From a virus, in the IMG/VR virus record IMGVR_UViG_3300031957_002612, positions 1 through 37,423 of that record: DNA of 37,423 bases. One strand, written 5' to 3'. The position numbers were made by a program, and so were the translations under genes. Under the pieces are notes generated by a model. It had not been told where the DNA came from. It ran no database searches and worked only from the letters and a program-made list of their open reading frames with translations. This document shows, one piece after another, positions 4,458 through 33,193 of this stretch; within the stretch, counting starts at the first letter, position 1; every line of letters begins with the position of its first letter.

Positions 4458-5519
4458 TTAGAACCTTGAATCTGCCGTATATTGAAAGTAAGCCTGATTA
4501 CCGGCTGTGATGTTTCCCTGGCAATTCAGACCAAAGGCCATTTCCCCCAGATCATACGCCGATCCCGCTTGATTGGATTGGAAAACAGCGCTGGTGTTAT
4601 ACTGGCTGTATTGTCCGCTGCTGCCGTTCTGAGTGTTGTAAAGCGTGATCGTCGGTGTGCTCCGTTTCCTGACCTTGTAACCCCAGCCGGCTGCATACAG
4701 ATACACGCTGCTCACAGCCACTCCAGAACAGGATCCCACCCCCGTGGCTGTGCCTGGTACCGTTCCCAGATCATAGGATTTCTCATAATACCGCTGAGCC
4801 AGCTGCAGCTGCTGCTCAATATCCGGGGCATAAAACCCCAGATCCCGGCTGCCCGGATACAGCGCCACCTGTGCCAGCTGGAAATTATTGGCCACATTAT
4901 CACAGGCATTCACCTGGCTGGCTGTGGCATAGAAATCCCCTGTATTCCAGCTGCCGGCTGTGGTCTGGTACGTGGATCCACAGGCCAGCATAAATACAAT
5001 CTGAAAGCCGATCCCGTTGGATTGGTTCCACGTGCCCGCTGAGGGGCTGGCCGGGATGATCAGCGTGGCTTTCTCCCATGTGTCTGCCACCGCCTGGCTG
5101 TATTCCAGGATCAGGCTCCGATCAGCGCCCGCATTCCGGATGGCCACACAATAAACCCCTGTTTTTGTGTGCTTATGCCAGAAAGTGAGCACACAGGGCA
5201 CCTCATAACAGCGCAGCGCGTGAAAGCCCTCCACATAGCTGCTCACGCCACAATACTCACCGGCAGCAATGCTGGCATCCGCTGTGGTGCAGTCCAGTTT
5301 CAGGGATTTATATCCATCATACAGCCTGCCCGTGGCAGCGGGATGATCCGTGGCCTGGCTGCCGGTGTGCACCATGGCCCCGGATTTCAGATACTGGAAT
5401 CCATCAATCACATAATCAGCGTCAGCCATCGCCGCAAAGGATGTGCCCTCCTGCGCGATCAGGCATTGTGGATTCAGAATCAGATTTTCTACCGCTCTGC
5501 GCGGCTGGAAACGTGGCAT
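4458..5519 (-). CDS. Putative tail fibre / receptor-binding protein
   Basis: 353 aa. The first 200 residues resemble the jelly-roll, carbohydrate-binding-type N-terminal region of many phage fibre proteins (AVENLILNPQC, then FWHKHTKTGVYCVAIRN and LACGSTYQTTAGSWNTGDF). The segment DIEQQLQLAQRYYEKSYDLG is a near-signature of these fibre proteins, where LQLCQRYYxKS precedes a C-terminal beta domain. The C-terminal 110 residues are S/T/Y/N-rich strands. It is the first of five consecutive structural genes after the lysis region. A receptor-binding role is likely from family resemblance; the ligand is unknown. Confidence 0.75.
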   Translation of the reverse strand: MPRFQPRRAVENLILNPQCLIAQEGTSFAAMADADYVIDGFQYLKSGAMVHTGSQATDHPAATGRLYDGYKSLKLDCTTADASIAAGEYCGVSSYVEGFHALRCYEVPCVLTFWHKHTKTGVYCVAIRNAGADRSLILEYSQAVADTWEKATLIIPASPSAGTWNQSNGIGFQIVFMLACGSTYQTTAGSWNTGDFYATASQVNACDNVANNFQLAQVALYPGSRDLGFYAPDIEQQLQLAQRYYEKSYDLGTVPGTATGVGSCSGVAVSSVYLYAAGWGYKVRKRSTPTITLYNTQNGSSGQYSQYNTSAVFQSNQAGSAYDLGEMAFGLNCQGNITAGNQAYFQYTADSRF

Positions 5520-5940: not shown

Positions 5941-6687
5941 TCAATAGGGGCAGCGCCCGGATGGGCAGCCGCTGGAAAATATCCGGCGCCGCTTACGTGG
6001 TGCCTGGTAGATGGATTGCCTGCGTGGTGCCCGTGGCTGGGGATCCGGGCTGAAAGCCACATTGCCATCATGATGATCCCCATGCAGGCTGATCAGGCTG
6101 GCTCGGCTCTGCTGGTTTAGATACGTATCGGAAAACCGGCCCGCATGGATCCCATCACTCCGCAGATGCTCAATCAGCTGTGCCCGGGATGGGCTGGCGT
6201 TGCCGTTGATCTCCCAGTTGCGACCACCCACGGGATAGGCTGCCGGCTGTGTGCTGACCGTGGCCTGCTCCGCTCCCTTGCCGATTTTGAACTGCCGGCA
6301 GGCGCGGGGGTTGGTCTGCTCAAACTGTTTCAGGAACGCATCCAGATCATCACCGTACCTGTAGTAAGATTGGCCATCCTCCCCGTTCCAATGAATGCAG
6401 GGGAAATACCGGGGCCAGGCTGGGGGCGCCGGTTCGATCCAGCGGATCCCGGGCACTCCCTTGGTTTTGGCTTTCAGCCGATCACAGGCAGGGCAGCTGA
6501 ACTGATCCCCGGGGGGCAGGTTCTCAGCCAGGTACAGGCTCACCACCGGCCTGGCTGCCGGGGCTGCCTCCGTGGTGGCTTCGGCCAGCTCCGTGGGGAA
6601 CAAAGACCATTCCCCGGCCCGGATTGGTTCGGCCCGTGATGCATGCACCAGGCAGACGATCAGCAGCAGCTTGGAAAGTGCTTTCAT
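5941..6687 (-). CDS. Secreted thioredoxin-fold protein with CPAC centre
   Basis: 248 aa. Residues 1-19 form a good signal peptide (basic MKALSK, hydrophobic LLLIVCLV, cleavage after about ASRA). Residues about 47-125 look like a thioredoxin/glutaredoxin fold: VVSLYLAENL strand, redox pair C65-P-A-C68 at the head of a helix, then W-P-R-Y-F-P-C-I-H-W with a likely cis-proline, and a final helix DDLDAFLKQFEQ. The C-terminal 120 residues are basic and end CPSGRCPY, with two more cysteines. It acts outside the cytoplasm and may reduce or rearrange disulfides. It starts 4 nt after the C1 peptidase gene and shares a WSLFP motif with that peptidase. Confidence 0.75.
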   Translation of the reverse strand: MKALSKLLLIVCLVHASRAEPIRAGEWSLFPTELAEATTEAAPAARPVVSLYLAENLPPGDQFSCPACDRLKAKTKGVPGIRWIEPAPPAWPRYFPCIHWNGEDGQSYYRYGDDLDAFLKQFEQTNPRACRQFKIGKGAEQATVSTQPAAYPVGGRNWEINGNASPSRAQLIEHLRSDGIHAGRFSDTYLNQQSRASLISLHGDHHDGNVAFSPDPQPRAPRRQSIYQAPRKRRRIFSSGCPSGRCPY

Positions 6688-6691
6688 GGTT

Positions 6692-7489
6692 TCACCTGTT
6701 CTCCGGAAATAAAGACCAGTCCGTTTCCCGTGGCTTGGGGGTGGCCATGTCGGTCATCCCGATGGCTACCGTGTAATTATCCCTGAGCAGGCTGGACAGC
6801 TCCCGCTCAGACCACCGCCCATATCCCCGATCCCCCCAGCCGGTTCCCCAGCTGTTGGCATACACAAAATCAGAGCCATCGGTTTCACAGAGGCAGATGG
6901 CATGCCCACCGCCCCGGCCCCACCGCACGCCGATGCTGATGGCCCCCACGCCCGCATCCAGCCACTTCCGGCAGTCACCGATGGTGGTCATTCTGCGGAA
7001 TGTTTTTAGCTTGTAGGGCGCTCCGGCTGCATACTGCTCCGCAGTGATCTGCTGCGTGTAACCATTGCGGGGGTAGGGATACAGTTCCTCCGGGCAGACG
7101 CCCCTGGTGCGTGCCAGCTCGGCACCCCCGGCAATCGTCGATCCACGGTCACCCCGGATGCCATCGATCAGCTGCGTGCCCACGTATCCCATCCAGCGGC
7201 TCAGCTGCACCACCTGGCCACCCGTGGCCAGCCAGTATGCAATTTCCATGGCAGTGGTGAGAGAGTGCCCCTGGCAGGATCCCCAGCCGTTCTGATCTTC
7301 GATCCTGAGCCACGTGGATGGCTTGGCTACCGTCACCGGCATATCTTTGTATGCGGAATAGGTGAAATTCACGCCCCGGGGCAGGCTGTCAATCCACAGC
7401 CGGTTTCTCAGTTCGTCCTGGTACCGCCAGCCGGTTTTTTTCCCTTTGGGTACCAGGTCCGGGGTGATCTCTTTGATGGCTTGAATCAT
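6692..7489 (-). CDS. Papain-family (C1) cysteine peptidase, candidate lysis protease
   Basis: 265 aa with a full papain-type catalytic set: C72 in NGWGSCQGHS, H196 in GRGGGHAICL and N212 in YANSWGTGWGDRGYGRW, in the order Cys-His-Asn usual for C1. There is no signal peptide and no obvious propeptide beyond about 50 residues, so it would be made active or semi-active in the cytoplasm. It follows two holin-like genes and a membrane-anchored protein, and no muramidase, amidase or transglycosylase is recognisable elsewhere. By position it occupies the endolysin slot. C1 peptidases are known in bacteria and in some phages; the lysis role is my inference. The C-terminus ends TDWSLFPENR. Confidence 0.9.
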   Translation of the reverse strand: MIQAIKEITPDLVPKGKKTGWRYQDELRNRLWIDSLPRGVNFTYSAYKDMPVTVAKPSTWLRIEDQNGWGSCQGHSLTTAMEIAYWLATGGQVVQLSRWMGYVGTQLIDGIRGDRGSTIAGGAELARTRGVCPEELYPYPRNGYTQQITAEQYAAGAPYKLKTFRRMTTIGDCRKWLDAGVGAISIGVRWGRGGGHAICLCETDGSDFVYANSWGTGWGDRGYGRWSERELSSLLRDNYTVAIGMTDMATPKPRETDWSLFPENR

Positions 7490-8511
7490 CTGGCTGCCTC
7501 CAGTCCCTGAGAAATTTCCCGCATCCGCAGTATCAGCCCCGCTGGATCATCGCGCACCTGGAACAGCTGCTGCTGATGCCACTTGTCATAAGTGCCCCAC
7601 CGCTGGGCTGCATCCGTGGCCCCGGCAAAGATATCCCCGGCTGCCCGCTGGTATTCCTTCAGAATCTGCTGGGCTGACCAGCTGTTTTTTTCTGCCGAAT
7701 TGGCCACGGTCTGCAGCGTGGCGATCAGCAGGCTCAGTTCAGCCGGTTTGAAATCGGTCTGCTTGATTTCCTCATAGGCACGCCGTGCGGTTTCGGATGT
7801 GAAATCCGGCTGGGGCTCCGGTTCGGGATCAGGCTCTGGATCAGGTTGGGGCCCTGGCCCCGGTTCTGGCCCCGGCCCGGGATCGGGCTGCGGATCAGTG
7901 CCGGCCACCGTGATCGACCAGCGTGCCAGGTCGATGCCCTCCGTATTGCTGACCGCCAGAAACACCTGGTACACCCCGGGCACGCCCGTGATGCAGCATT
8001 TTTTCCCACCCTCAAAATCAAAATAGCTCAGTGATCCATCCGCAGCCGGGGGAAATACCTGCCAGGCATAATGCTCCCCCGTGCTGCTGGATGCATCCAG
8101 AATCAGCAGGTTACCGGATTTGCCCCCGGATGGCCCCACGATGCGTGCCACGGGGGGCAGCGTGATGCGCGGGGGATCATCGGCAGGATCATCGGCAGGA
8201 TCATCGGCAGGATCATCGGCAGGATCATCGGCTGCCGGCTGCCTGGTGAGCCCATACCACTGGGGATCCACCTGCGGTGCTGTCTCTGCCGGTTTCGTTT
8301 CCGGTTGCGTTTCCGGGGCTGCAGCGGGCAGCTGTGGCTGCTCTGCCGGCTGTTCTATCACCGGCGCTGGCTCATCGGTCTGCCCGTGCTGCAGCTCGGC
8401 ATACTTCTCCCCACCCAGAAAGACGATCAGGGCACTGAGAACCGTGATGATCAGGGTTTTAATTCTTTCGGTCTGCCACCAGGGCACTGCTGCTTTGTTG
8501 GATTGGATCAT
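7486..8511 (-). CDS. Membrane-anchored protein with PKD-like domain and low-complexity linkers
   Basis: 341 aa. Residues about 18-34 (KTLIITVLSALIVFLGG) are a single N-terminal membrane anchor that is not followed by a cleavage site. A P/A/E/Q-rich linker (45-90), ADDP repeats (94-113), a PKD-like beta sandwich (about 121-203), a second linker of PDPGPGPEP type (206-236) and a helical C-terminal domain (237-341) follow. The layout suits a protein spanning the periplasm and reaching the wall or outer membrane, like a unimolecular spanin or wall-binding tether. It overlaps the C1 peptidase start and follows the holin-like pair. The membrane topology is reasonably clear; the spanin-like role is an inference. 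Confidence 0.72.
   Translation of the reverse strand: MIQSNKAAVPWWQTERIKTLIITVLSALIVFLGGEKYAELQHGQTDEPAPVIEQPAEQPQLPAAAPETQPETKPAETAPQVDPQWYGLTRQPAADDPADDPADDPADDPADDPPRITLPPVARIVGPSGGKSGNLLILDASSSTGEHYAWQVFPPAADGSLSYFDFEGGKKCCITGVPGVYQVFLAVSNTEGIDLARWSITVAGTDPQPDPGPGPEPGPGPQPDPEPDPEPEPQPDFTSETARRAYEEIKQTDFKPAELSLLIATLQTVANSAEKNSWSAQQILKEYQRAAGDIFAGATDAAQRWGTYDKWHQQQLFQVRDDPAGLILRMREISQGLEAAR
8174..8233. repeat. Five tandem 12-bp repeats encoding ADDP units
   Basis: The unit GGATCATCGGCA on the plus strand is repeated five times; the last copy ends in T. On the coding strand it gives ADDP repeats in the PKD-like membrane protein. Perfect short tandem copies suggest slippage-prone length variation. 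Each unit carries one GATC. Confidence 0.95.
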
Positions 8512-8520
8512 ATTCCTGCC

Positions 8521-8763
8521 TTAGTTTGACTGCTGGTCGGTTTCGATTTCACGCGTGATGGCCTGGATCAGATTCCCCACCGAATAGGCCACCGCTGCCA
8601 GGTAGGGGATCCCCTCATTCACATCCAGCACCTGTGACAGATCAGTGGAAAACCAGATGCCTGTGACCATCGCCAGGCTGATGCCCAGCCGGATCAGGCT
8701 GCTGATCAGATCCTGCTTGGTGAATTTGTTTTTGGGTGCCGTGGGTGGTGAGAATAATTTCAT
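8521..8763 (-). CDS. Holin-like protein with two hydrophobic segments
   Basis: 80 aa. A short basic N-terminus (KNKFTKQD) precedes two hydrophobic helices, about residues 20-42 (LISSLIRLGISLAMVTGIWF) and 52-70 (GIPYLAAVAYSVGNLIQAI), joined by a short acidic turn, and then a charged tail REIETDQQSN. Size and topology match small class II-like holins. It overlaps the upstream membrane gene by 4 nt (ATGA) and precedes the anchored PKD-like gene, so these form one unit. A holin role is inferred from size, topology and place rather than from a recognised family signature. Confidence 0.65.
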   Translation of the reverse strand: MKLFSPPTAPKNKFTKQDLISSLIRLGISLAMVTGIWFSTDLSQVLDVNEGIPYLAAVAYSVGNLIQAITREIETDQQSN

Positions 8764-9137
8764 GATGCGGGGTGCCCCCTGTTGAGAATGATTTGGATCT
8801 GCTCTCCGTGCCGGATCGTGGTGCCTTTCAGCTGCTGCACATCGGCTGCCACCGTCTGGATGGCTTCGTGGATCACTCCATTTTCACGATCAATGCGATC
8901 ATGGATTTCCTGGTGTTCGTTGTCGTTATCCGTCCTGAGAACACTCAGCGCCTCTGCAATCGCCACCATGGCAGCTGCTGTGCCGGCTGTGTTGCGTTCC
9001 ACCTTGATGATATATTTCAGCGTCCAGGCTGCGATCAGCAGCACCATAGAAGTGATCCCGCCGATCAGAGTCATGCCCACCCCGACGATGGCTTTCCACT
9101 CATCCGGGCTCAGCTTGTCAAACATCCCTGTTTCCAT
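8760..9137 (-). CDS. Holin-like or holin-accessory membrane protein, XhlA-like layout
   Basis: 125 aa from ATG 9137 (METGMFDKLSPDEW). ATG 9125 is equally possible, while an in-frame ATG at 9152 abuts a terminator T-run and is less likely. One strong membrane helix lies at about residues 16-43 (GVGMTLIGGITSMVLLIAAWTL). The rest is a charged, coiled-coil-prone region (NEHQEIHDRIDRENGVIHEA, then DVQQLKGTTIRHGEQIQIIL). A membrane segment next to a coiled coil in a small protein beside a holin is typical of haemolysin XhlA-type accessories, though here the helix is N-terminal. It is the first gene after a terminator and so may head a separately expressed lysis/late transcript. Confidence 0.65.
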   Translation of the reverse strand: METGMFDKLSPDEWKAIVGVGMTLIGGITSMVLLIAAWTLKYIIKVERNTAGTAAAMVAIAEALSVLRTDNDNEHQEIHDRIDRENGVIHEAIQTVAADVQQLKGTTIRHGEQIQIILNRGHPAS

Positions 9138-20518: not shown

Positions 20519-21475
20519 TCAGGCAGGGAACCTGAGAATATCGGGATCGTGATCGGGGGGATCCTGCGTCTGAAAGGCTGCCGGCTGGCTGGCATGCGTG
20601 GCCAGCTCTCTCAGATGCTCGGTCAGATTCGCATAGCTCCTGCGCGTGGTATCGATGCTGGAGTGACCCAGCATTTCCTGTGCAGCGCCGGGGCTCTGCT
20701 GGAACAGTCTGGATCCACAGGTAGACCGCAGCTGATGGAATGTCAGATGCTGTGCCCGGGGCAGTCCGGCTGCATCCTGGATGCTGTGCCAGTGCTGATA
20801 CAGAATCCGCACCCCCTTTGATTTGGGAAAGACCAGTTCCCGCTCTGACCAGATTTTCTGCAGATGCTCCACTGCCGTGGGATGCAGTGGCAGTACCCTG
20901 AGTTTCCCGGTTTTCTCGGCACGGAACTGGAACGCGTGATTGTCCAGATCCAGATCCTGCATCCGCAGATTGAACACATCGTTCCGCCTGAGCCCCGTAT
21001 TGAACAGGAACACCAGCAGCGCCTGCCACCAGGCACCGGCACCGAATTCGAAGCGGGGCCAGGTCGCCTCTGCTGCAGCCTGGTAGATGGCACCCAGCTC
21101 CGCATCTGTGGCCACGCGGGGCAGCTTCTCCGGTTCCCTGGCGCGGGGCACATACACAAAATCGGGAATGATGGCCAGTCCGCCCGGATTGGTTTTCCCT
21201 TTTGGGGCCAGCCGATTCAGAACGGCCATGATGTGCGCCCGGGCTTTGTTGAACGTGCTGGGGCTCAGCTGCTGCAGGAAAGCGGTTTTGAATTTGGTGA
21301 GTGTGAGATTGTTGATCTGCTGAATATCGGGATCGTCGGTCAGCGCCTCCCAATGGTCGAACACTTTTGCATATTCGTCCCTGGTGCGGGGCTTCAATTC
21401 TGACTGATCGTAATAAGCTAGATATGCCTGTCTGAGTGTGGTGGTTTTGTGGTTGTGTTTGATGGAATCGATCAT
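20519..21475 (-). CDS. int: Tyrosine site-specific integrase
   Basis: 318 aa from ATG 21475 with AGGAG about 9 nt upstream; a TTG at 21502 is in frame but less likely. An N-terminal SAM-like domain (TTTLRQAYLAYYDQSELKPR through ARAHIMAVLNRL) is followed by the catalytic domain. Catalytic residues appear as R163 in FNTGLRRNDV, K188 in AEKTGKLRVLPL, H247 and R250 in HQLRSTCGS, H271 in LGHSSIDTT and nucleophile Y281 in RRSYANL. It catalyses recombination between attP and host attB. The attP core lies about 0.75 kb away. A terminator follows. No excisionase is obvious nearby. Confidence 0.95.
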   Translation of the reverse strand: MIDSIKHNHKTTTLRQAYLAYYDQSELKPRTRDEYAKVFDHWEALTDDPDIQQINNLTLTKFKTAFLQQLSPSTFNKARAHIMAVLNRLAPKGKTNPGGLAIIPDFVYVPRAREPEKLPRVATDAELGAIYQAAAEATWPRFEFGAGAWWQALLVFLFNTGLRRNDVFNLRMQDLDLDNHAFQFRAEKTGKLRVLPLHPTAVEHLQKIWSERELVFPKSKGVRILYQHWHSIQDAAGLPRAQHLTFHQLRSTCGSRLFQQSPGAAQEMLGHSSIDTTRRSYANLTEHLRELATHASQPAAFQTQDPPDHDPDILRFPA

Positions 21476-21755
21476 CGATGCAGACTCCTGATAGTTGCTC
21501 AAACAGTGGGAACTGAGTGCCTGCTTGCAGTTCCTGCCTGTCCTTGATCCATCGTGCCTCCGTGTGAGCGTTGCCGGTTTGATCCTGTAACTGAATTAAA
21601 GACAAAAGGGTGCTTTGATCCACTCCCCAGACCATCCGATTTTCTGTCTTTGTCGTCAATCTAAAAACCAGCATCTCTCGGCCCGTCCATGATAAGCGCG
21701 TACAGTGGGCGCAATTTTCCCGATCATGTGTTTTTTTCAGGGGACGAAAAAGCGG

Positions 21756-22606: not shown

Positions 22607-22892
22607 CCCGCTCATAATATTTTTTCACCAGCCAGCGGATCCCCGTGATCGTCGTCAACCAGCGGACCACTGTGCCACTGCCGGGGATGCAGGCATTCAT
22701 GCTCTGTTCACGCTGCGGACAACCACAGCCCCGGGGTTTCGCCCGGGGGGCATCCGGCCTGGACTCGGGATCGAAGGGGGGCAGCTCAAAACCCTGGCGC
22801 TCCCAGTGCTGCCGATAGACCAGAATGGCCTCTGTGCTGTGATGTGAGGCACCGCTGGCGATCAACCGTTGATGCTGGTTTAAAGGTTTCAT
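22560..22892 (-). CDS. Small hypothetical protein at the end of the structural operon
   Basis: 110 aa from ATG 22892, ATGA with the preceding stop. It has a short helical N-terminus with several His/Gln residues (NQHQRLIASGASHHSTEAIL), a middle CGCPQREQSMNAC, and a C-terminal WLVKKYYERVNR. The last 47 nt overlap the end of the plus-strand membrane gene, so the two genes converge tail-to-tail. Function unknown; its place at the end of the tail genes is the only clue. Confidence 0.65.
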   Translation of the reverse strand: MKPLNQHQRLIASGASHHSTEAILVYRQHWERQGFELPPFDPESRPDAPRAKPRGCGCPQREQSMNACIPGSGTVVRWLTTITGIRWLVKKYYERVNRSGASPGSDNDAS

Positions 22893-23965
22893 GAATCAGG
22901 CAGCTCATCCAGGCACTGCAGCCGGCAGATATTCCCATAAAATTCGTCAATGTCCCCCAGGTTTTTGCACAGAGGCACATCCATCATATTGGCATCACCG
23001 GCCAGGAAGACCCAGCCGGCCCCCTCTGCAGGATAGCGATTGCCAGCCATCACACAATTGGACGTGTCAGTGGTTCCCGTGCCGGGATCGTACACATAAG
23101 CAATCGTAGTGCTGCCGTTTTCGTTGACCTTGGATGCCCCACCGATGCCGAAAAAAAACACGTTCTGCGTGCCTTCGGTATCGTTAAAAAATGGATGGGT
23201 ATCATCGGCCACGATCGCGCCCACCTGGCAACCCACCACCAGATCATCCAACGTAAGATAGGCATCTCCTCCGATGGCTGCATAGAACGCATTCATCGCA
23301 TTGATTTCCTGCTGAGACATACAGGATGGGGCATTCTCTACCTCAGCAAAGACAACCACGGATCTGCCAGACTTGATGAATTCAATAATGGCATCTGTAT
23401 AACGGGGGGTGTTCCAGGTACAGATGGCATTGTCACCATCACAGCCGTTTGTACCAGCAGTCAGAAACAGAATATCGATATCGGATGCCAGCAGGGCATC
23501 GGCAAACGCGCGCTCGTAAGGTTCATATTGAAAGTAAGGATAACACTGGACGTTACAGGGGGGCAGGCATTCCAGGCTTTTCAGTTCCCACTGCAGCTCA
23601 TCCGTGGCATAGTTCCGCATGTACCGCGCGTAACCGGTTCGACAATACAAATCAGAGTAGGGCTCCACCAGGTTGCAGCCCACGTGATCATGCACGATGA
23701 TTTCCCGATCATCATTTTCCTTCGAGGCACTGCCCACGCCGTAATCATAGCCCACGATTCTGGCAGTGGCGCTGATGGGGGTTGTGCTGTCATCAATCGA
23801 CTTGATTTTTACCCGCACCTCTGAACCACCGGTTCCCCCGCCCGTGGGGAATTCATTGCGGTACCTGGCCCCGGTTTTCTGCATCCCCTCCAGCTTGCGC
23901 ACCGCATTCCTGGTGCGGATGAAATCCTGCTTTTTATTGAATCCGAATACTTTTTTTCTGGCCAC
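22889..23965 (-). CDS. Distal tail protein: duplicated N-terminal domain plus extra C-terminal domain
   Basis: 358 aa from GTG 23965 (VARKKVFGFNKKQDFIRTRN), the same start context as the paralogue before it. Residues 1-125 repeat the fold and many residues of the 134-aa neighbour, including GARxR, GGG, the VxDxxGCxL block, RxGYARxM and QWE. Residues about 126-358 are a separate alpha/beta domain (DILFLTAGTN, RSVVVFAEVENAP, AGWVFLAGDANMM) with the strand order of a glutamine-amidotransferase-like or flavodoxin-like fold and many Cys. Its catalytic residues cannot be assigned. Likely a tail-tip protein. Confidence 0.7.
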   Translation of the reverse strand: MARKKVFGFNKKQDFIRTRNAVRKLEGMQKTGARYRNEFPTGGGTGGSEVRVKIKSIDDSTTPISATARIVGYDYGVGSASKENDDREIIVHDHVGCNLVEPYSDLYCRTGYARYMRNYATDELQWELKSLECLPPCNVQCYPYFQYEPYERAFADALLASDIDILFLTAGTNGCDGDNAICTWNTPRYTDAIIEFIKSGRSVVVFAEVENAPSCMSQQEINAMNAFYAAIGGDAYLTLDDLVVGCQVGAIVADDTHPFFNDTEGTQNVFFFGIGGASKVNENGSTTIAYVYDPGTGTTDTSNCVMAGNRYPAEGAGWVFLAGDANMMDVPLCKNLGDIDEFYGNICRLQCLDELPDS

Positions 23966-23976
23966 GGTTCTCAGTC
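23900..23976. repeat. 77-bp near-identical repeat, copy 1
   Basis: Nearly identical to 24316-24392, with one mismatch seen (G/C in the start region). It covers the ribosome-binding region, GTG start and first 20 codons of the second paralogue. Confidence 0.9.
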
Positions 23977-24381
23977 CTACGGGGGGCAAATCTGGTTCAC
24001 TTCCCACTGCGCCGTTGAATCACCCACATCATGCATCAAACGGGCATAGCCCTGCTTGCCGATCAGGCTGGCCCCCTCTGACAGATAGCAGCCTGCTTTG
24101 TCGTAAACAGTCAGCTGGTTGCTCTCATCCTGCTGGGGCACTTTGGTCCGGTTCGAATCCGTGGCCAGCACGGTCACCACTGCTGATTTCGGGCTGGCTG
24201 CCGTATTCACGGAATCCACCTCAAAGCGGATTTCCACACCGCCGGCACGCCCGCCCCCCAGAGGATATTTCCTCCGGTTGCGGGCACCGGCACGATGCAT
24301 GGTTTCAATGGTTTTCACCGCATTCCTGGTGCGGATGAAATCCTGCTTTTTATTGAATCCGAATACTTTTTTTCTCGCCAC
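23977..24381 (-). CDS. Distal tail protein, short paralogue
   Basis: 134 aa from GTG 24381, chosen because the adjacent paralogue starts at the same codon in an identical context. ARKKVFGFNKKQDFIRTRNA opens the protein; a GGG-rich hinge, beta strands (GVEIRFEVDSVN) and the block QLTVYDKAGCYLSEGASLIG follow. It has only the domain that the next gene carries at its N-terminus. Likely a tail-tip or baseplate subunit by position between tape measure and the end of the structural block. Confidence 0.7.
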   Translation of the reverse strand: MARKKVFGFNKKQDFIRTRNAVKTIETMHRAGARNRRKYPLGGGRAGGVEIRFEVDSVNTAASPKSAVVTVLATDSNRTKVPQQDESNQLTVYDKAGCYLSEGASLIGKQGYARLMHDVGDSTAQWEVNQICPP

Positions 24382-32533: not shown

Positions 32534-33193
32534 CTAGTCCTGCAGGCTCATCTGATGCAAGTCTATTTCTGCCAGGCGCTGGCAAATATTTACAGCTGCA
32601 GGATTCGTGCGGGCTTTCAGATACTCGGCTCTCAGCTCCTGTTCATTGGCACCAGCTGACCTGGTGTCCGCTGTGGTGGCCTGGTAGGCAGGATAAGTAA
32701 CCGGCCCCACATCACCCAGATCCAGATCCTCAATCTCTCTGATGGTGATTTCCTGGCCATCCCGCACCTCATCGATCCAGACCGCTTTGGTGGCGCGGAA
32801 CGCAAAGGAACTGCCGGGAACGTCCCCCCGCTGAATCGAGGTCACCGCATCCCGTCCGGGCTGCGTATCAGGCGCATCAATCTCATACCTGAGCCCGATA
32901 TCATCCACAAACAGCCGGCAGGTACTGGCACCCACGCGGCCCAGTAAGTTGCTCGGATCGTGATTGAACAGCGCCCGGGCATCGTGCCCCTCTCTCAGTG
33001 CCCGATCAAAGGCCCCCGGTTTAATGCGTTCCTCCAGCCAGTCGAACATCCGGTAAACGGTTCCCTCATCGTTGGGATTGTAGAACACCGCAGCATAACC
33101 CACGATCAGATCAGACTGCCCCTCCCGTTTCTCCACGCGGATTTTCGCGCCGGCTCTCTGCTCCGTGTAATGTGAATGCATAGCCTGAATCAT
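32534..33193 (-). CDS. Prohead maturation protease (HK97 family, U35)
   Basis: 219 aa. IVGYAAVFYNPNDEGTVYRM, then FDWLEERIKPGAFDRALREG and DARALFNHDPSNLLGRVGAS give the U35 signature with catalytic H78 in FNHDP. The nucleophile S128 or S129 is in GDVPGSSFAF, and a later ITIREIEDLDLGDVGPVTYP completes the domain with the conserved I-x-x-I/L-x-D-[L]-D-V-x-P-V-T-x-P-A-Y motif. The C-terminal 45 residues are an added helical tail. The protease removes the delta domain of the capsid protein before DNA packaging. Confidence 0.95.
   Translation of the reverse strand: MIQAMHSHYTEQRAGAKIRVEKREGQSDLIVGYAAVFYNPNDEGTVYRMFDWLEERIKPGAFDRALREGHDARALFNHDPSNLLGRVGASTCRLFVDDIGLRYEIDAPDTQPGRDAVTSIQRGDVPGSSFAFRATKAVWIDEVRDGQEITIREIEDLDLGDVGPVTYPAYQATTADTRSAGANEQELRAEYLKARTNPAAVNICQRLAEIDLHQMSLQD

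Follow-up and report, generated by a model that had tools for sequence, protein, structure and literature searches.

Canonical holin-endolysin-spanin cassettes of tailed phages are lambda S-R-Rz and P2 Y-K-lysABC, in which the spanins are an inner-membrane coiled coil and an outer-membrane lipoprotein. Here we describe a four-gene cassette at positions 6692–9137 of the IMG/VR virus record IMGVR_UViG_3300031957_002612, a linear record of 37.4 kb; the whole stretch of 37,423 nucleotides is referred to as the window. Like the lambda and P2 cassettes, it combines small membrane proteins with a soluble enzyme free of an export signal and with exported partners, in similar slots. Unlike them, its enzyme is a C1A peptidase, no known peptidoglycan hydrolase was found, and the partners are PKD/Ig-like and thioredoxin-like proteins rather than recognised spanins. 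We read it as a phage lysis cassette in which a C1A papain-family peptidase would be the cytoplasmic lysin released by a holin, a reading to which we assign a probability of roughly 0.55. This reading gains support, at the level of sequence comparison, from an exchangeable conserved module, the clustering of membrane proteins, the lysis slots, an enzyme without export signal beside predicted exported partners, and searches that found no muralytic family.

We see a functional parallel, from an unrelated family, in PeiW and PeiP, cysteine-peptidase lysins of archaeal phages that act on an unusual wall. According to the available part of PMC4592898, reducing agents favour their activity, and they have a Cys-His-Asp triad as in transglutaminases and cleave at Ala-epsilon-Lys of methanogen pseudomurein, whereas the window family has Cys-His-Asn. 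The CHAP and Amidase_5 domains of endolysins, as described in the available parts of PMC8586454 and PMC4126393, have a papain-like topology and a catalytic cysteine, as the window enzyme does; unlike them, the latter finds its matches within C1A (xylellain, cathepsins) and has a Gln ahead of the Cys as well as an Asn-Ser-Trp motif. None of the 61 window ORFs (open reading frames) scanned with Pfam matched CHAP or NlpC/P60. We recognised no C1 lysin in the open-access literature on planctomycete phage lysis, papain-type endolysins, planctomycete phages and pseudomurein lysins, and the main text of a 2025 survey of viral lytic proteins (PMC12596118) had no occurrence of either 'planctomyc' or 'papain'.

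The peptidase and its relatives in virus records

The product of 6692–7489 scored 30 bits with Pfam Peptidase_C1 (E 7e-7), above the gathering score of 20.7, and had no CHAP or NlpC/P60 match in Pfam. Its AlphaFold2 model (predicted local distance difference test, pLDDT, 74.7; predicted template modelling score 0.78) had its best structural match in xylellain (PDB 3ois), a bacterial C1 peptidase of Xylella fastidiosa (Foldseek E 2.8e-11; VIA-align Z 21.9, root-mean-square deviation 3.0 over 214 residues), which is the closest solved structure both by sequence and by fold. We know of no lysis context for xylellain. The C1A signature was found: the oxyanion Gln, the Cys six residues from it, and the His and Asn that follow in this order. 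Across an alignment of 23 rows, window included, Q66, C72 and H196 were conserved in every row and N212 in 22, the sole exception being a broken copy; across 38 rows (L020, L023, L036 and L037 omitted, and subfamily II, introduced below, represented by one member per 90% cluster) C72, H196 and N212 were invariant and Q66 was present in at least 90%. No signal peptide is predicted, as residues 1–50 contain no hydrophobic segment. By profile, model and conserved residues, the protein is a C1A papain-family peptidase with a complete predicted catalytic site.

The preliminary description of this DNA had listed two holin-like membrane proteins, a membrane-tethered PKD protein and a cytoplasmic-type C1 peptidase with C72/H196/N212 and no signal peptide. 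The four genes were confirmed, all on the minus strand; the peptidase assignment agrees with Pfam, the model, the alignments and the lack of a hydrophobic N-terminal segment, and the membrane tether with the N-terminal hydrophobic stretch that precedes the PKD-like domain of the 7486–8511 product.

Terminase relatives of the window, with 39–44% identity, were identified in six IMG/VR contigs. The PF00112 profile matched none of these six records; in one of them, G004, a C1 homologue with 30% identity is present, so that a Pfam search alone misses such genes. Relatives were found with alignments built stepwise. Subfamily I comprises 23 IMG/VR contigs, with an N-terminal PPGKKTGCLPR-like motif and DQDGxGSC, and with one C1 match per contig, the broken copy of G022 being in two pieces. 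Subfamily II comprises 30 further IMG/VR contigs, with GSCQGH, forming 13 clusters at 90%. The C1 gene is thus carried by 54 virus records including the window, many of the other 53 contigs being near-identical. The window peptidase groups with subfamily II (support 100/99, in a tree with long branches and a bootstrap that had not settled). Single-sequence scans of IMG/VR with the window peptidase and with the product of 5941–6687 found no relative. Some tblastn searches of 50,697 phage records gave no match and others weak ones, one search matching 3 records at no more than 33% identity and another a single uncultured phage at 24%; by this comparison the family appears in no isolated phage at comparable similarity. 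The ratio of nonsynonymous to synonymous substitution rates (dN/dS) was 0.07–0.15 in five C1 pairs, values that are rough because dS is high, and the sixth pair was saturated. A chance occurrence of the peptidase is ruled out by the 54 virus records and by dN/dS well under 1.

A conserved module around the peptidase

Directly upstream of the peptidase, a predicted exported partner was encoded in all 22 subfamily I loci with upstream DNA. Eighteen of these partners were assigned by BLAST cluster, those of L024, L034 and L043 by alignment and that of L022 by reading its frame; the set holds two near-duplicate pairs and omits L023, whose contig begins inside the peptidase. The two genes overlap or abut, with a gap of -64 to +35 nucleotides in 21 measured loci. 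The partner has a signal-like N-terminus, mostly a PKD/Ig-like domain and a proline-rich linker, and then a domain with invariant Glu and Pro and no CxxC. This last domain had the thioredoxin order of elements in a predicted model (pLDDT 87). Foldseek found no match of the model in the PDB at E ≤ 0.001, and its VIA matches were middling (7r5k, Z 8.6; PKD 1wgo, Z 7.9; 2voc, 2dlx and 6dnl, Z 7.6). From the order of elements in the model and these middling matches, the partner is putatively a PKD/Ig plus thioredoxin-like protein. Its thioredoxin-like part had no significant PDB sequence and did not match the CxxC thioredoxins of the module (E 0.15).

A small gene lies upstream of the peptidase in subfamily II, with a clear hydrophobic N-terminus in 11 of the 13 clusters and a lipobox-like N-terminus in 4. 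The downstream ORF, picked by script, had CxxGxC in 8 of 13 and a hydrophobic N-terminus (at least 1.6 over 19 residues) in 5 of 13. Six secreted proteins encoded downstream of subfamily II peptidases align over a W..HL..LHxxxH domain, and the product of 5941–6687 belongs to the same family (hhalign probability 95.7, E 8.4e-9). This secreted-protein gene, which starts 4 bases past the end of the peptidase gene, is an addition to the original four-gene cassette; the thioredoxin-like reading of its CPAC segment was made by eye. Small secreted-looking proteins with CxxGxC and an Arg-rich tail adjoin the peptidase in L012 (9793–10155), L110 (8882–9067) and L128 (8816–9019), and the end of 5941–6687 is of this kind. 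On the other side of the peptidase, the partner gene 7486–8511 overlaps it by 4 bases. The PKD part of the window's partner is 34% identical (E 6e-12) to the partner of L032, and no match was found between its end and the small proteins encoded upstream in subfamily II (E 0.067).

Taking both subfamilies, a hydrophobic N-terminus was found in 30 of 32 upstream genes (the window's own partner being outside this count), in 0 of 34 peptidases, and in 92 of 977 among all genes of 17 records. Small membrane proteins made up 31 of the 115 genes within four of the peptidase and 19 of the 718 elsewhere in 15 records, and none of 20,000 random centres scored as high; G023 and G027 are exceptions, with no small membrane protein within four genes of the peptidase.

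Phage proteases are commonly maturation enzymes, and a peptidase without export signal could well be an intracellular one, serving prohead or tail maturation or host takeover and simply lying next to membrane genes. The window already has a prohead protease, which rules out head maturation, and the regular coupling to an exported partner would be left unexplained; we regard an intracellular role as hardly probable at all.

Positions of the module and exchange between phages

Genes that name the slots were identified by eye, as were terminases, portals, capsids and tail genes other than those of the window, unless a search is named. The module lies before the terminase in G356, G234 and L022, after the terminase in L019, between head-tail completion and tail genes in L110, L114 and L125, near baseplate-like genes in L133 and L135, and upstream of a fibre gene in the window. 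We take the positions before the terminase and between head-tail and tail genes to be those of the lambda and P2 lysis genes. Terminases of the carriers compared form at least four lineages that BLAST does not link at 1e-5; a single 207-residue match joins the L022 group to that of G223. The peptidases of L019 and L022 are 74% identical, with no BLAST link at 1e-5 between their terminases; conversely, the window and G004 have related terminases (43%) and peptidases of different subfamilies. Lysis genes are typically exchanged between phages in this manner. By these comparisons the module appears to move between phages with unlinked terminases and to sit in classic lysis slots.

Other enzymes seen in the place of the module are proteases, with none recognised in G005. 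In G003, of the same terminase lineage as the window, the corresponding region encodes a Trypsin_2 protease (E 1e-14) with an N-terminal hydrophobic segment (L008:11212–12231, minus strand); a single-sequence scan with it, which detects close relatives only, returned itself alone. Two contigs of 205 and 194 kb encode, three genes upstream of the peptidase, a matrixin of family M10 that carries PG_binding_1 (E 1e-33; L133:6301–7233 and L135:6339–7250).

These positions also bear on another function, that of a virion or entry enzyme which would digest host surface proteins at adsorption, with particle- or receptor-related partners. Tail fibres often contain PKD and Ig-like domains, and the location inside head-tail genes (L110, L114, L125) or near genes judged baseplate-like by eye, with the matrixin close by (L133, L135), would fit such an enzyme. 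However, the signal-like hydrophobic N-termini of the upstream partners (30 of 32) fit the envelope of the infected cell better than a particle, and the module also precedes terminases in G356, G234 and L022. We find an entry function quite unlikely.

Planctomycetota as probable hosts

A terminase-profile scan of genomes gave, among the matches listed, a Planctomycetota metagenome-assembled genome with 44% identity over residues 1–588 and Paenibacillus with 24%; at least two terminase relatives in genomes were confirmed among those matches. Because of the Planctomycetota terminase 44% identical to that of the window, the host is probably a planctomycete. G029, the genome with the terminase relative, had no match to the C1 profile, and scanning GTDB genomes with patterns from subfamily I gave no relative. 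The idea that the peptidase is absent from genomes was overturned by a profile search, which found prophages: at least 14 of 392 Planctomycetota genomes matched the C1 profile at 1e-12, a lower bound since at most seven candidates were scored per genome. The surroundings of six of the 14 matches were read. Three, in G356, G234 and G223, are read as prophages of Planctomycetota from their gene content; two, in G350 and G312, as chromosomal C1-thioredoxin loci; and the sixth as an ordinary C1 gene adjoining a lysyl-tRNA-synthetase-like gene. The window peptidase is 35% identical to the C1 peptidase of G223 and 36% to that of G350.

In G356 and G234 the prophage has a gene for a small protein with the motif PIDIPNVPN, one for a small exported protein, the C1 gene, one for a membrane/coiled-coil protein, and the terminase and portal genes. 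The small exported protein has a VVTVTESS stretch that resembles, by eye, one in the partner. This likeness is by eye only, because the thioredoxin-like part of the partner matched none of the 392 genomes at 1e-3, a set with no known matching genome other than, by eye, these two.

In G350 (L099/L100) and G312 (L087), a C1 peptidase, a lipoprotein-like gene and a CxxC thioredoxin gene stand in a row, followed by an ATPase-like gene and, in G350, also by a GNAT-like gene. The surroundings in G350 look chromosomal across the 38 kb listed, and this row is perhaps a domesticated phage module.

Planctomycetes have peptidoglycan sacculi that lysozyme breaks up, as stated in the available part of PMC4432640, and phage release without lysis was described for one planctomycete (PMC10945688, in its available part; mentioned in PMC11361711, likewise). 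The latter report suits a module that acts on the envelope of the living host, in superinfection exclusion, surface remodelling or non-lytic particle release. So do the exported, anchored partners, the integrase of the window, which suggests a possibly temperate phage, and the C1 and CxxC thioredoxin genes of G350 in a region without obvious phage structural genes. Against such a role, the peptidase lacks an export signal, none of 34 having a hydrophobic N-terminus, and it is frequently found amid late genes, together with several small membrane proteins; we judge the role very unlikely.

Search for peptidoglycan hydrolases

The statement of the preliminary description that no peptidoglycan hydrolase is recognisable in the window was upheld: none of the 21 Pfam families found (E ≤ 0.01) in 61 minus-strand ORFs was muralytic, in a scan that left out the edge-cut ORF 2–355, plus-strand ORFs and the shortest ORFs. 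The pseudomurein endoisopeptidase family, for which Pfam presumably holds a model, was not among the 21 either. A hydrolase gene could lie beyond the record, since this is linear, 37.4 kb long and of unknown completeness.

Further Pfam sets were limited to ORFs of 85–460 amino acids found by our gene caller. No muralytic family was present among the best 25 of 39 families in G013 and G004 (77 ORFs, made up of 76 of the 77 listed and one added), among the best 25 of 35 in G223 and G020 (89 ORFs, 88 of the 93 listed and one added), or among the 16 families in G003 and G005 (73 ORFs, 71 of the 97 listed and two added); the ORF lists of G018 and of G009 with G017 were outside these scans. The profiles PF01510, PF00959, PF13539 and PF00877 (Amidase_2, Phage_lysozyme, Peptidase_M15_4 and NLPC_P60) each matched 0 of 46 virus records, and the positive controls gave 6, 3, 1 and 9 of 14 genomes, respectively. 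The 46 records, of up to 205 kb, were 22 of the 23 of subfamily I (G012 omitted), 21 of the 30 of subfamily II, the window, G003 and G005, hence 44 with C1 and 2 without.

It could be argued that the true lysin is hidden, i.e. that the W..HL..LHxxxH domain of 5941–6687, the coiled-coil protein or the end of 7486–8511 cuts peptidoglycan, while the peptidase is an accessory which processes the lysin or clears a protein layer. The hosts have peptidoglycan (PMC4432640, available part), the W..HL..LHxxxH protein is common to the window and six subfamily II loci, and even C1 members escape profile searches: Pfam gives no family for the C1 proteins L052:4227–4937, L098:342–1196 and L135:8025–8843. 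However, the module has no known muralytic signature, and the peptidase is recognisable in every locus (by construction of the search) with a complete catalytic site, so that we consider a hidden lysin unlikely.

Proposed role of the peptidase

If the cassette serves lysis with the peptidase as lysin, the enzyme would accumulate in the cytoplasm during late expression, and the small membrane proteins at 8521–9137 would open the inner membrane. Once in the periplasm, the cysteine enzyme may be held, guided or kept reduced by the anchored PKD protein (7486–8511) and the secreted protein (5941–6687); it would cut envelope peptide bonds, either in proteins linking the outer membrane to the wall or in the peptide stems of peptidoglycan, and the cell would burst. 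Thioredoxin-like domains would be expected to recur if, as may be the case, a cysteine protease working outside the cytoplasm depends on a redox partner. Because planctomycetes have peptidoglycan, the substrate may be peptide bonds in or around it, or a protein layer or anchor that limits lysis.

Several points weigh against this reading. Lysis by the peptidase is predicted from sequence and gene context, and none was observed. Lysozyme-sensitive peptidoglycan means that a protease alone might not suffice (PMC4432640), and non-lytic release is reported for a planctomycete phage (PMC10945688), both as far as the available texts go. The earlier suggestion of a host whose envelope depends on proteins is too simple and finds no support, given the lysozyme-sensitive sacculi of the likely host phylum, which rule out the rationale of a host without peptidoglycan (PMC4432640, same part). 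The comparisons lend partial support to the cassette of the preliminary description, with a protease as lysin in a holin-endolysin-spanin order; its holins and spanins are candidates by size and hydrophobicity only. Its two holin-like proteins are indeed small and hydrophobic, and no holin family in Pfam or PHROG scored over the cut-off for either, nor did any window gene match a spanin family there. The 8760–9137 product came below the cut-off for the Pfam P21 holin (E 0.015; 15.7 bits against 26), weakly matched a PHROG holin family (E 0.19), and weakly matched phrog_1009 (E 0.038), a family of unassigned function that also weakly matches a gene of L022 (E 0.0041). The 8521–8763 product had no Pfam match and two weak PHROG matches (E 0.17 and 0.36), both to families of unassigned function. 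Further, G003 and G005 are without C1 peptidase, and no protease was recognised in the corresponding region of G005. Many of the virus records are short and maybe fragments. Since PF00112 missed C1 members (0 of 6 records, despite G004), a divergent hydrolase could escape likewise, and one protein of a C1-carrying phage, L035:8699–9262, is NlpC/P60-like by eye, with no Pfam match.

More tentatively, and with the odds somewhat against it, Planctomycetota phages might commonly lyse by proteolysis, with a holin-delivered C1A branch as lysin and an exported PKD/thioredoxin-like partner keeping or making its cysteine active beyond the cytoplasm; in related phages this lysin would be swapped for or joined by other proteases (the trypsin-like one of G003, and the M10 matrixin of the two contigs of about 200 kb).

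Layout of the window

Coordinates are collected in Table 1. Of the 50 called genes, 49 are on the minus strand. Read in the direction of transcription, the genes begin with a structural block (small terminase, terminase, portal, prohead protease, HK97-type capsid, connectors, tail and tape measure). An early block follows, where the integrase, CsrA-like, methylase and replication genes lie, and then the peptidase cassette. More genes lie 3′ of the cassette, including a tail-fibre match at 4458–5519 and an HNH gene. No tRNA or Rfam match was found in the window.

Within the 61-ORF set, Pfam CsrA matched with E 2.1e-22; the match was assigned to 16984–17208 (minus strand) through likeness to ORFs of L009 and L012 that are CsrA-like by eye. 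A probable tyrosine integrase is encoded at 20519–21502 (minus strand; Phage_integrase E 2.1e-23 in the ORF set) and is related to L015:110–1009. Near the starts of the two adjoining genes 23977–24381 and 22889–24007 (minus strand) lies the stretch VARKKVFGFNKKQDFIRTRNAV, which, being common to both, suggests a tandem duplication.

Table 1. Positions of the cassette genes, the adjoining secreted-protein gene and the prohead protease in the window
Feature	Position	Strand	Description
All cassette genes	6692–9137	-	Transcribed from 9137 to 6692
Small protein, holin candidate, 125 amino acids	8760–9137	-	One hydrophobic segment, then a coiled-coil-like tail
Hydrophobic protein of 80 amino acids, holin candidate	8521–8763	-	Candidate by size and hydrophobicity
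Anchored partner protein	7486–8511	-	N-terminal hydrophobic stretch, PKD-like domain, Pro/Asp-rich linker, helical-looking C-terminal part
C1A papain-family cysteine peptidase, proposed lysin	6692–7489	-	Q66, C72, H196, N212
Secreted protein	5941–6687	-	Signal-like N-terminus, CPAC segment, W..HL..LHxxxH domain, Arg-rich tail ending CPSGRCPY
Prohead protease	32534–33193		The window's own

Implications for phage exit from planctomycetes

We found no description of phage exit from planctomycetes in the open-access literature, and the finding supplies named genes and prophages with which protease-based lysis can be tested. If the peptidase truly bursts cells, it would be a new type of phage lysis enzyme and would represent a class outside the peptidoglycan-hydrolase paradigm for walled bacteria. 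A protease lysin would, if true, call into question the view that walled bacteria can be lysed only by means of a peptidoglycan hydrolase, and would indicate a load-bearing protein component in planctomycete envelopes.

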